From: Thermoguttaceae bacterium
Lineage (GTDB): Bacteria; Planctomycetota; Planctomycetia; Pirellulales; Thermoguttaceae
Assembly (NCBI GenBank): GCA_017939795.1
Contig: JAGBAA010000033.1
Span: 1 to 64,000 of the forward strand
Direction of reading: 5' to 3'
DNA length: 64,000 nucleotides
Positions within the stretch are counted from its first letter, which is position 1, and each line of letters opens with the position of its first letter. Positions 36,795 to 43,321 of this stretch are shown here, piece by piece. Below the pieces are notes generated by a model. That model made no database searches, was not told the DNA's origin, and was given only the letters and a program-made list of their open reading frames with translations. The position numbers and the translations under genes were made by a program.

Positions 36795-37850
36795 TCACAC
36801 GTTCGGGCCCTGTGCCCAATGGGGACCTTCATCATTTCCGCAGAGCCGGATCCCTGTTCCCGGAAGCGGTTCCTCCGGAACGAGAGTACGGACGATCCGT
36901 TCCAGAAGCTGCTCCATCCCCGTTTCCTGGAGTGCCGAGACCGCGATCTCCGTCTCCATCAGCGTCTCCATCCCGTTCCACTCAGATTCCGAGACCAGAT
37001 CCGCTTTATTCCAAACCGTCAGGAGCCGTTTTTCTTTCAAAATGTTTGGAATGTTCAGGTACTCCGAAATTTCAGACGCATCCCGACGTTCCTGTGCCTC
37101 ACGGATCCAGAGGATCAGATCGGCCGACTCGATCTCCATGCGGGCACGCCGGATCCCTTCACGCTCGATCTCATCCGCCGATTCGTGCAGCCCTGCCGTA
37201 TCGACCAGTTCCACGTTCCAGCCGTCTAAAACCGTTTTTTCCCGCAGAATATCGCGCGTCGTCCCGGCCTTTTCATAGACGATCGCACGCGGAAATCCAA
37301 GAATTCGATTGAAAAGCGAGCTTTTCCCGACATTCGGTCTCCCTACCATCACGACCTTCCATGGTTTCGTCAAACGACACGCCAGTTCGTCCCACTTTTG
37401 CGTATCCTCGCCCGCTTTTACGGCTCTCTCAAACGCTCCGTCAAACTGGTCGTGAAGGATCCTGGCGATTTTTTCCGTTTCCGCCCCCAAAAGAGCCTGA
37501 AATGCCAACCGCTGATTTTCGGTCTTCTCCGAAAAATTTCTCCGGATCCACATTTCCCGCGAGATCTCCTGCGCCCCCTGCTCTACAAGCAGTTCTCCCA
37601 GCCGGGCGACTGCGGCCTGAGAGCCATGGCAGTGGATCTCCATTTCGTTCTCCGAGACGGGGCAGACCAGAACATCTTCCTCAAAAATCGTACCATAGAC
37701 GATCTCTCCGGGCGGATACTCACCAAGCGGACGGCCGGAACGGGGAGTAAAAAAAGAAGATACGATCTTCGCGGGATCTTCTGCAAAAAGGGAGACCACT
37801 GCGATCGCCCCCTTTCCGGGAGGAGTCTGCGTCAGAAATTCAGCCGTCAT
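36795..37850 (-). CDS. MnmE/TrmE-like GTPase, short form without the CxGK tail
   Basis: 351 aa, about 100 fewer than MnmE; AGAGG precedes the ATG. The N-terminus (GKGAIAVVSLFAEDP...MEIHCHGSQAAVARL) matches the MnmE tetrahydrofolate-binding domain, including the CHG element. The G domain (about 165-310) has GRPNVGKSSLFN, TTRD, DTAGLHESADEIEREGI and NKAD. MnmE ends in a helical domain closing with C-[IV]-G-K, whose Cys is required for tRNA U34 modification; here the chain ends at AQGPNV and that motif is absent. The start region and stop are intact, so this looks like a divergent paralogue or a reduced family member rather than a broken gene. tRNA modification activity is doubtful. Confidence 0.82.
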   Translation of the reverse strand: MTAEFLTQTPPGKGAIAVVSLFAEDPAKIVSSFFTPRSGRPLGEYPPGEIVYGTIFEEDVLVCPVSENEMEIHCHGSQAAVARLGELLVEQGAQEISREMWIRRNFSEKTENQRLAFQALLGAETEKIARILHDQFDGAFERAVKAGEDTQKWDELACRLTKPWKVVMVGRPNVGKSSLFNRILGFPRAIVYEKAGTTRDILREKTVLDGWNVELVDTAGLHESADEIEREGIRRARMEIESADLILWIREAQERRDASEISEYLNIPNILKEKRLLTVWNKADLVSESEWNGMETLMETEIAVSALQETGMEQLLERIVRTLVPEEPLPGTGIRLCGNDEGPHWAQGPNV

Positions 37851-37996: not shown

Positions 37997-39619
37997 TTAG
38001 TACATTCCGCCCATGTCGCCGCCAGCCGGAGCCGCCGGAGCGTCCGCCTTCGGTTTCTCGGCGATCAGAGCTTCGGAGGTCAGCAGCAGGGACGCGACGC
38101 TTGCCGCATTCTGAAGAGCCGTGCGCGTGACTTTGGTCGGGTCGATGACGCCGGATTTCACCAGGTCTTCGAATTTATCCGTCGCCGCATTGTAGCCAAA
38201 GTTGCCTTTGCCTTCCGCGACCTTTTCGCAGATGATCCCGCCGTCTTTACCGGCGTTGGCTGCGATCTGGGAAAGCGGAGCACGGCAGGCGCGCAGAATG
38301 ATGTCGTAGCCGATCTTTTCATCCTGGGTCAGGCCGTCAGCCTTCACCAGCGAGCTGGCACGCAGAAGCGCAACACCGCCGCCCGGGAGGATCCCTTCTT
38401 CCACGGCCGCACGGGTCGCGTGAAGAGCGTCTTCGACGCGGGCTTTCTTCTCTTTCATTTCGCTTTCGGTGGCCGCACCGACGAGGACTTTCGCGACGCC
38501 GCCGGAGAGTTTCGCAAGACGTTCTTCCAGCTTTTCGCGGTCGTAGTCGCTCGTTGCGTTGCCGATCTCACGGCGAAGCTGCGCGATGCGGGCTTTGATC
38601 TCTTCGATGTCGCCGGCACCTTCGATGATCGTCGTATTGTCTTTGTCGATGACCAGCTTCTTCGCACGGCCAAGGTCTTCCAGCGTCACGTTTTCAAGTT
38701 TCTTGCCGATGTTCTCGAAAATCGCCGTCGCGCCGGTGAGGATCGCGATGTCTTCCAGCATCGCCTTGCGGCGGTCACCGTATCCCGGAGCCTTGACGGC
38801 CGCGATCTGGAGGGAACCGCGCAGACGGTTGATGACCAGCGTCGTGAGAGCTTCACCGTCGATGTCTTCCGCCAGAAGGAGCAGCGGTTTGCCAGTCTGA
38901 ACGACGGCTTCCAGAACCGGAAGGAGGTCCTTGATGTTGCTGATCTTCTTTTCAAAGACCAGAATGTAGGCGTCTTCCATCACGCACTGCATCGTATTCG
39001 GATCGGTGACGAAATACGGAGACAGGTAGCCGCGGTCAAACTGCATACCTTCGACGTACTCGACTTCCATCGCGAGGGATTTGCTTTCGTCCACCGTGAT
39101 GACGCCGTCTTTACCGACTTTGCTCATCGCCTGGGCCAGGAATTCACCGATCTCGTGATCGTTATTCGCGGCGATCGTTCCGACCTGAGCCATTTCTTTT
39201 TCGGTCTGGATCGGGATCGAAAGCTTGTGGAGTTCGTCCGTCACGTCCGCGACGGCTTTGTCGATACCGCGTTTCATCTGAAGCGGATTCACGCCGGAAA
39301 CGACAGCGCGGAGACCTTCATTGAAGATCGCTTCCGCCATGAGCGTCGCGGTAGTGGTTCCGTCGCCGGCGATGTCGTTCGTCTTGCTGGCCACTTCGCG
39401 GACCATTTTGGCGCCCATGTTTTCATAGACATCTTCCAGATCGACTTCTTTCGCGACCGTCACGCCGTCTTTCGTCACGAGCGGACTGCCGAAGCTCTTC
39501 TGGATGATGACATTACGGCCGCGCGGACCAAGGGTCACTTTCACAGCCTGAGCCAGTTTGGACACACCGCGGCGCATGGCATCACGGGCTTCCTGATCAA
39601 ACGCAATCATCTTTGCCAT
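37997..39619 (-). CDS. groL: Chaperonin GroEL
   Basis: 540 aa; AAGGAG eight bases before the ATG. Forms the double-ring folding chamber with GroES. Canonical stretches: [11 protein letters not shown], the ATP-site [55 protein letters not shown], and the short GG[DM]-type C-terminus (GGDMGGMY). Length matches the family. Lies 73 bp downstream of groES in the usual groESL order. Its ATPase Asp residues ([25 protein letters not shown]) are present. Confidence 0.98.
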
Positions 39620-39692: not shown

Positions 39693-40025
39693 TCAGCCAA
39701 TGATGGCCAGGATGTCTTCTTCACGCAGAAGCAGGTATTCTTTGCCGTCAAGTTTGAATTCTTCACCCGCGTAGGACAGGAAAAGCACATGATCGCCAGC
39801 CTTGACCTGAAGTTCCGAACGGGAACCGTCTTTCAGCAGTTTACCGTTTCCCGTGCAGGCAACGATCCCGCGCGACGGCTTGTTTTTCGCCGTTTCGGGA
39901 AGATAGATACCGCCGGCGGAAATACTCTGCGCTTCGTCACGCTCCACAACGATACGATCTCCAAGAGGCTGGATATTCAGTTCCGATTTCTTCTCACAGG
40001 CACACGCACACTTTTTCTTGGCCAT
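39693..40025 (-). CDS. groS: Co-chaperonin GroES with Cys-rich N-terminal extension
   Basis: 110 aa from ATG 40025, with GGAGG eight bases upstream; a frame to 40058 lacks support. Caps the GroEL ring. The GroES fold begins at LNIQPLGDRIVVERDE and includes the mobile loop AQSISAGGIYLPETAKNKPSRG and LLLREEDILAIIG at the end. Before it is an extra 15-residue stretch, MAKKKCACACEKKSE, with three alternating cysteines flanked by lysines, not present in ordinary GroES (about 97 aa). In the heptamer this would place 21 cysteines near the ring edge. No CIRCE element (TTAGCACTC inverted repeat) is visible upstream, so HrcA control is unlikely. Confidence 0.95.
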   Translation of the reverse strand: MAKKKCACACEKKSELNIQPLGDRIVVERDEAQSISAGGIYLPETAKNKPSRGIVACTGNGKLLKDGSRSELQVKAGDHVLFLSYAGEEFKLDGKEYLLLREEDILAIIG

Positions 40026-40302
40026 GGATTGGACCTCCAAAATTCTATGAAATGTCAAATTTTGTCATTTTGCTGACGTTTTTCGCGATACTTACATTAA
40101 TACAAAATTCGTGTCATTGACATTTTGGCAGAAAAAAAGTCCATTTTTCTCACCAGATGCCTCCGGTTTCACCCTAATACAATTACGCAATTTACGCACG
40201 CTCTATATTTTAAATGCCCTTGCGAATTAGCCCCGTCGTCCCATTCATCCCCCCATCTCAAAAAATTTTCTGTCCAGACGGAATGACGGCTCCGCAAGAC
40301 AT

Positions 40303-42445: not shown

Positions 42446-43321
42446 ATGAGCGAAACCATTACGGTTCGATGCCATGGATGCCGTGTCGGCATGAAGATCA
42501 AGGCGGAATATGCCGGGAAACTCCGAAAATGCCCAAAATGCGGGACGATCTTCGTCGTTCCGTCTCAGGATGGAGAAACGACGCCGCCTGCGCCTGAAGT
42601 TCTTGCAGAATTGCGCCGTCAGGCAGCGTTGGCAAAGAAAAAGGAACAGGAAGCGGAAGCATCGGCAGGATCTCCTGGAAGTTCGGCATCTTCCGCAGGT
42701 CCGGCTTCTTCTGCATCCGTTTCCGAAACTTTACCCCGGCCGGCGGCTCCGAAGATCACGTTCGGTTTCGGCGGAGCATCTTCCGAGAATGCGATCGGTG
42801 CGTTTGGTTCTGGAGCAGGCACCAGCTCTTCTGAAGAGACCTCCGAAGACATTCAGGCCGAGGGGGGGATCCAGCCCGTGGAACGTCCGAAACGGCTGGA
42901 ACCGGCGTACCGTTACGTCATTCTGGACTCGGAACGGATGGTCGCGTACTGGCAGAACGAGACCGGCTGGCAGGTCAACGACGGCGTGAAGCTCGTTTCC
43001 GCAAGACGGAATGCGCAGGTGATCCCCAAACAGGGCGATTTCCGTTTCCTGGAGCTTCAGCTCGGCACGGTGGACGAAGAATTCCGCATCACGAAGATCC
43101 GGATCTTCCAGCTCGCGCGGCAGTATTCCGTCACGAAGATCGCACAGGAAGAAAATGACGTGCTCTCCACCATCACCCGGCACGCCGGTCTGACGCGGAG
43201 TCAGAAAAACGCTCTGCTCCAGGGACTGAAAAAGCACTTCATGCGCTCCGTCTGGGCCGATTCGCCGGCGGTGTACGACTATTTGATGAACGAAGACTTC
43301 CACAGCCACGAGATCTCCTGA
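42446..43321 (+). CDS. Zinc-ribbon protein of unknown function
   Basis: 291 aa from ATG 42446 (GGAG nine bases upstream). Residues about 8-32 are a Cys4 ribbon: CHGCRVGMKIKAEYAGKLRKCPKCG, a form common in planctomycete proteins. Residues about 50-155 are Ala/Ser/Gly/Pro-rich linker. The C-terminal domain (about 155-291) is a compact alpha/beta segment beginning YRYVILDSERMVAYWQNETGWQVNDGVKL and ending in helices (LTRSQKNALLQGLKKHFMRSVW). I do not recognise it. Flanked by the TPR gene and aroB on the same strand. Confidence 0.7.
   Translation: MSETITVRCHGCRVGMKIKAEYAGKLRKCPKCGTIFVVPSQDGETTPPAPEVLAELRRQAALAKKKEQEAEASAGSPGSSASSAGPASSASVSETLPRPAAPKITFGFGGASSENAIGAFGSGAGTSSSEETSEDIQAEGGIQPVERPKRLEPAYRYVILDSERMVAYWQNETGWQVNDGVKLVSARRNAQVIPKQGDFRFLELQLGTVDEEFRITKIRIFQLARQYSVTKIAQEENDVLSTITRHAGLTRSQKNALLQGLKKHFMRSVWADSPAVYDYLMNEDFHSHEIS

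Follow-up and report, generated by a model that had tools for sequence, protein, structure and literature searches.

GroES is highly conserved as a protein. The copy encoded in the window (the whole 64,000-nucleotide stretch of Thermoguttaceae DNA analysed here) begins with a short tail of lysines and alternating cysteines. The original prediction proposed that these cysteines could bind metal or form disulfides. The features concerned are as follows.

39693..40025, minus strand: groES-1, 110 aa, translation beginning MAKKKCACACEKKSELNIQPLGDR; Cpn10 domain at residues 17–109
39978..40025, minus strand: N-terminal tail, residues 1–16 (MAKKKCACACEKKSEL); residues 1–13 predicted disordered
40008..40010, minus strand: Cys6 codon TGT, groES-1 tail
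40002..40004, minus strand: Cys8 codon TGT, groES-1 tail
39996..39998, minus strand: Cys10 codon TGT, groES-1 tail
40034..40038, minus strand: GGAGG ribosome-binding site of groES-1, 8 nt ahead of ATG 40025
37997..39619, minus strand: groEL-1, 540 aa, directly downstream of groES-1; cysteines only at 212, 445 and 464

The groES-1 gene and its product

The product is a GroES by every sequence and fold test made. It scores 106.9 bits against Pfam Cpn10 (PF00166; cut-off 21.1) and 111.1 against NCBIfam NF001531, the co-chaperone GroES subfamily (cut-off 96), and its modelled fold matches Thermus thermophilus Cpn10 best (4v4o_P, E 1.5e-10). The AlphaFold2 model, a single chain built from 23 sequences, has a mean pLDDT of 77.6 and a pTM of 0.66, with values below 50 for residues 1–13, consistent with a disordered tail. 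The description of a normal GroES preceded by a Lys/Cys extension is thus borne out by the 110-aa translation and its domain boundaries.

The start site also holds. GGAGG lies eight bases from the ATG, as had been argued against a mis-called leader, and over the 45 codons that precede the GDR motif (locus L002) the only other in-frame starts are two upstream TTG codons, neither of which has a ribosome-site match; a mis-called start was consequently rejected. The converse possibility, that translation begins later than 40025, was also checked, and no later in-frame start codon was found within the tail. In a congener (L006), a stop codon sits three codons above the ATG. The predicted ring of 21 cysteines, three per subunit, is right for the tails, but the core holds one further cysteine, at residue 57, so that each subunit has four and a heptamer would have 28.

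Several neighbouring features were recorded. Following groEL, a 351-aa GTPase (36795–37850, minus strand) looks like a shortened MnmE-like protein, its MnmE/TrmE N-terminal match scoring 26.0 bits against a cut-off of 29.8. Upstream of groES lies a perfect 9-nt inverted repeat (40050–40058 / 40117–40125; AAATGTCAA / TTGACATTT), which is a possible operator or a product of chance; the classic CIRCE heat-shock operator has no full match in the window. Further away, at 42446–43321 on the plus strand, a 291-aa protein with no Pfam match has CxxC twice in its N-terminal part (CHGC and CPKC) and appears zinc-ribbon-like. Elsewhere in the same genome are two further GroES genes, both tail-less (L003:1498–1785, in G000:C56, and L001, in G000:C43); the 3.3-kb locus of the former contains no ORF for groEL.

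Distribution of the cysteine tail

Among the 119 genomes of the family Thermoguttaceae that were searched, GroES-1 could be read in 104; the remainder comprise one with an unread match (G084) and 14 without a match as good as E 1e-30. At least two tail cysteines are present in 62 of the 104, exactly one in two and none in 40, so the tail can be rejected as an oddity of one genome. The conservation among planctomycete relatives that the original prediction had called for is therefore present, and the possibility it raised that relatives lack the extension is answered by their carrying the cysteine tail.

In eight genera every GroES-1 has at least one tail cysteine (61/61). These are the window genus (8/8, the window's own genome among them), g9 (19/19), g20 (18/18), g25 (7/7) and g63 (4/4), together with the small genera g10 (2/2), g29 (2/2) and g19 (1/1). 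Two genera are mixed (g5, 2/3; g7, 1/2), 25 lack tail cysteines, and the two single-cysteine proteins belong to members of cysteine genera. The window genus itself reads CACAC, CACAC, CECAC, CACAC, CCVCGC, CECGCGC, CCEGSCC and ECSC; cysteine number and close spacing are kept, but the exact CACAC pattern highlighted at the outset is not.

Outside the family, none of the 23 best GroES matches from the order's other families has a cysteine in its first 16 residues, whereas 21 of the 23 carry a lysine-containing extension, as judged by eye; one of the two without it (L235) seems to be a tail-less paralogue. The lysine extension is thus both old and common, and the cysteines are what is new: it is they, rather than the extension, that distinguish this protein. 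A search of a named collection found tail cysteines in ten of 80 loci, all ten planctomycete, and none in the other 70, although this search was seeded with query peptides that included the cysteine tail and is not a fair sample. A tail-pattern scan hit 18 genomes out of 396, every one of them within the family; since 62 family tails with two or more cysteines are known, the zero outside is weak. The nearest named records are Thermoguttaceae or Planctomycetia drafts, two of them tied to goat colon and goat reticulum (L034, L036), in keeping with the planctomycete origin assumed in the original prediction, and some cysteine-tailed planctomycete relatives are known from animal guts. In the open-access literature searched, no title or abstract was found that deals with cysteine-rich N-termini of planctomycete GroES.

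Constraint on the tail sequence

Count statistics, uncorrected for relatedness, were drawn from the eight all-positive genera, which supply 52 distinct tails. The mean cysteine count of these tails is 2.96 with a variance-to-mean ratio of 0.17, close to that of lysine (0.15) and well below those of serine (1.03), alanine (1.00) and glutamate (0.63), and 50 of the 52 have at least two cysteines. The positions of these cysteines vary among relatives while their number stays near three.

For spacing, all genera were pooled, giving 52 distinct tails that carry two or more cysteines, and these were compared with shuffles of the residues after position 5, again uncorrected for relatedness. CxC occurs in 42 of these tails (22.3 expected) and either CC or CxC in all 52 (37.5 expected). 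CxxC is depleted (2 against 20.3), and CC taken by itself shows no excess (18 against 24.0). None of the 62 tails with at least two cysteines contains histidine.

At the nucleotide level, several genera encode the kept cysteines with TGC as well as TGT (g20 uses TGC only), and the residues beside them change and shift through indels. These codon swaps and indels indicate selection on the protein, and count against a constraint confined to the nucleic acid. Selection has probably maintained two to four closely placed cysteines here; the case seems a clean one, in which the number and spacing of residues in a disordered tail are selected and their sequence is not. The manner of its retention suggests that the tail binds metal or senses oxidation.

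Evolutionary history

A tree of GroEL built from 48 rows, 42 of the family and six from outside, in which g9, g10 and the cysteine-less members G069 (g5) and G076 (g7) are absent, gives two changes in the cysteine-tail trait, both forced by well-supported branches. One cysteine group unites g19, g1, g63, g29, g25 and g20, with support of 81/86 (not strong), and the other g5 and g7 (99/80). The short GroES core tree joins g9 and g10 with g20, g25, g29 and g63 (support 98), leaves g1 apart, and places g19 elsewhere with weak support, in conflict with the GroEL tree. It gives seven trait changes, four of them forced, a count inflated by two one-cysteine rows scored as lacking the trait. The cysteine tail therefore arose at least twice, and the absence of G069 and G076 from the GroEL tree makes further gains or losses in g5 and g7 likely.

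Structure and proposed mechanism

The predicted disorder of the tail makes a flexible ligand plausible. Since thiol number and spacing are steady while the sequence drifts, such a flexible thiolate ligand would fit better than a fixed docking surface. In a reduced cytosol, the seven tails of a ring would offer 14–28 thiolates capable of holding a soft metal ion, and zinc or copper(I) would be a more likely occupant than nickel, an arrangement somewhat akin to metallothionein-like sites or the zinc–thiolate sites of chaperones. On oxidation, the tail thiols would release the metal and pair as disulfides, either inside one tail or from tail to tail, which would alter the behaviour of the lid. 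Metal–thiolate binding would then be the primary role, with redox release its likely consequence. A literature search for the place of the GroES N-terminus in the cage returned nothing.

Lysines nearby should favour the thiolate form of cysteine, and CxxC is the commonest zinc spacing. The soft-metal interpretation draws on the CxC and CC pairs without histidine and nearly without CxxC, which resemble soft-metal sites of the metallothionein type, on the neighbouring lysines and on the precedent of zinc–thiolate chaperones of the Ruc type; more broadly, metal–thiolate binding is favoured by the distribution of the tail, the steady cysteine count, the CxC excess, the codon swaps and the lack of a cysteine excess in GroEL. 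Set against this, CxxC is depleted, CC by itself shows no excess, two members of cysteine genera have a single cysteine, the nickel enzymes sought gave no linked metal gene, and with positions so variable there is no conserved fixed site. The favoured reading, put forward tentatively and a little short of an even chance, is a flexible tail whose thiolates would bind soft metal in the reduced state, with oxidation as a switch-off or cross-link route.

A bolder version, distinctly speculative, would make the lid a device that responds to metal and oxygen: its seven CxC tails, arranged in a ring, carrying soft metal when reduced and linked by disulfides when oxidised, would couple chamber closure to redox state or metal supply, with at least two origins and with thiol number rather than sequence selected. 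Should the tail act in the way proposed, the activity of the chaperonin would depend directly on the cell's redox state or metal supply.

Alternative explanations and genomic correlates

A redox lock or thiol exchange could instead be primary, with lysine-activated CxC and CC thiols cross-linking subunits, or reducing or isomerising client disulfides, on meeting oxygen, and metal being incidental. The CxC excess would suit this, as would the genomic distribution of haem-copper oxidase: PF00115 matched none of the 62 cysteine-tail genomes and 24 of the 42 others, with this absence, like every gene absence in the family genomes, limited by draft completeness. The window's planctomycete is, by inference, probably anaerobic. 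However, ancestry is a confounder of this contrast, and four well-supported independent pairs give no signal, so that oxidase loss was rejected as a cause of the tail. Nor is such loss sufficient, as the oxidase is also missing from 18 of the 42 genomes with fewer than two tail cysteines (two of the 18 having one). A search for the redox chaperone Hsp33 (PF01430) gave no match across the 119 family genomes, though eight of 14 control genomes matched. This absence would be in keeping with a redox role for the tail, but it is shared by genomes with and without the cysteine tail and so does not discriminate; replacement of Hsp33 by the tail was rejected. The depletion of CxxC, the classic dithiol spacing, is a further difficulty, and a primarily redox role is considered doubtful. 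A link between the tail and [FeFe] hydrogenase was also rejected; matches occur in 105 of the 119 family genomes and, by our own count from the match list, at similar frequency in the cysteine-tail rows (56/62) and in the others (37/42).

The tail might alternatively be a protein contact, its cysteines and lysines docking on a partner or preventing GroES-1 from mixing with other GroES copies. This has in its favour that the two other copies in the window's genome are tail-less, and that the lysine part is older and widespread. Positions and spacers are nevertheless too variable for a fixed docking motif, and many genomes have a lysine tail without cysteine, which leaves the contact explanation improbable.

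Neutral or relaxed accumulation, in which anaerobes merely tolerate cysteine in a disordered tail, would account for the free drift of the tail sequence, for its presence in lineages without oxidase and for the slightly higher cysteine content of the GroES core in cysteine-tail proteins (0.32 per protein, against 0.075 in others). It sits poorly with the steady count, the CxC preference and the TGC/TGT swaps. General cysteine inflation is also not seen in GroEL or in other N-termini of the window's genome. GroEL, matched from residue 1 in all 44 long family loci, contains 0.72% cysteine in 32 cysteine-tail loci and 0.88% in 12 others. Across 222 ORFs of the window's genome (389 kb, the window plus 20 other stretches, with groES falling below the ORF length cut), cysteine makes up 1.5% of residues overall and 1.7% at residues 2–16, where five ORFs have two cysteines and none has three or more. 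Functionless accumulation is hence judged quite improbable.

A nickel-chaperone role of the kind known for Helicobacter HspA, a GroES whose metal-binding end is rich in cysteine (PMC5116745), is very improbable here, as the 62 tails lack histidine, [NiFe]-hydrogenase matches occur in only three of the 62 cysteine-tail genomes (G011, G070 and G013; all partial and read as NuoD of complex I), and urease is found in none of the eight genomes of the window genus, whose drafts are incomplete. The [NiFe]-hydrogenase family and urease were the nickel enzymes sought; the former is also without a match in these eight incomplete drafts, and the eight family genomes whose match falls below E 1e-40 all lie outside the cysteine-tail set. 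Without histidine in the tails or a full-length nickel-hydrogenase match in the genomes bearing them, the nickel role of HspA is probably not transferable.

Comparison with known systems

In its full domain match, its correspondence to the fold of solved Cpn10 structures and the groEL directly downstream, GroES-1 resembles other GroES/Cpn10 proteins; it differs in the 16-residue Lys/Cys tail that precedes the domain. The classic E. coli GroES starts at the domain, with 1aon_O from residue 1 onward matching residues 16–109 of the query.

In metallothioneins, a flexible chain characteristically carries cysteines spaced as CC or CxC. The GroES tails share these close cysteines, which occur in all 52 distinct tails with at least two, but carry only 2–4 per chain and are attached to a folded, heptamer-forming protein; a 16-residue tail on a Cpn10 domain is not the whole small Cys-rich protein that a metallothionein is.

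The Hsp33 domain has a zinc-binding cysteine motif. No such domain was found in GroES-1, in which Cpn10 is the sole domain found. The chaperone Ruc (Rv0991c) is described as holding zinc through cysteines and releasing it on oxidation (PMC7448276). The resemblance lies in chaperone-linked cysteines and, for Ruc, in the pairing of zinc-holding cysteines with a disordered part (PMC7448276). Hsp33 and Ruc are nevertheless other proteins, and the tail family has CxC and CC, and rarely CxxC.

A further parallel is Helicobacter pylori HspA, likewise a GroES with an added Cys-rich end, for which the source describes a Cys/His-rich metal-binding domain B that is C-terminal, contains eight histidines and four cysteines, and binds nickel (PMC5116745). 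The GroES-1 addition is N-terminal and without histidine, and domain B is absent from GroES-1, which ends with its Cpn10 domain (residues 17–109 of 110). GroES-1 lacks the HspA features tested but may function along similar lines with another metal. Its cysteine tail lies at the end of GroES opposite to that of HspA, is retained in at least eight genera, and has a further origin outside them.
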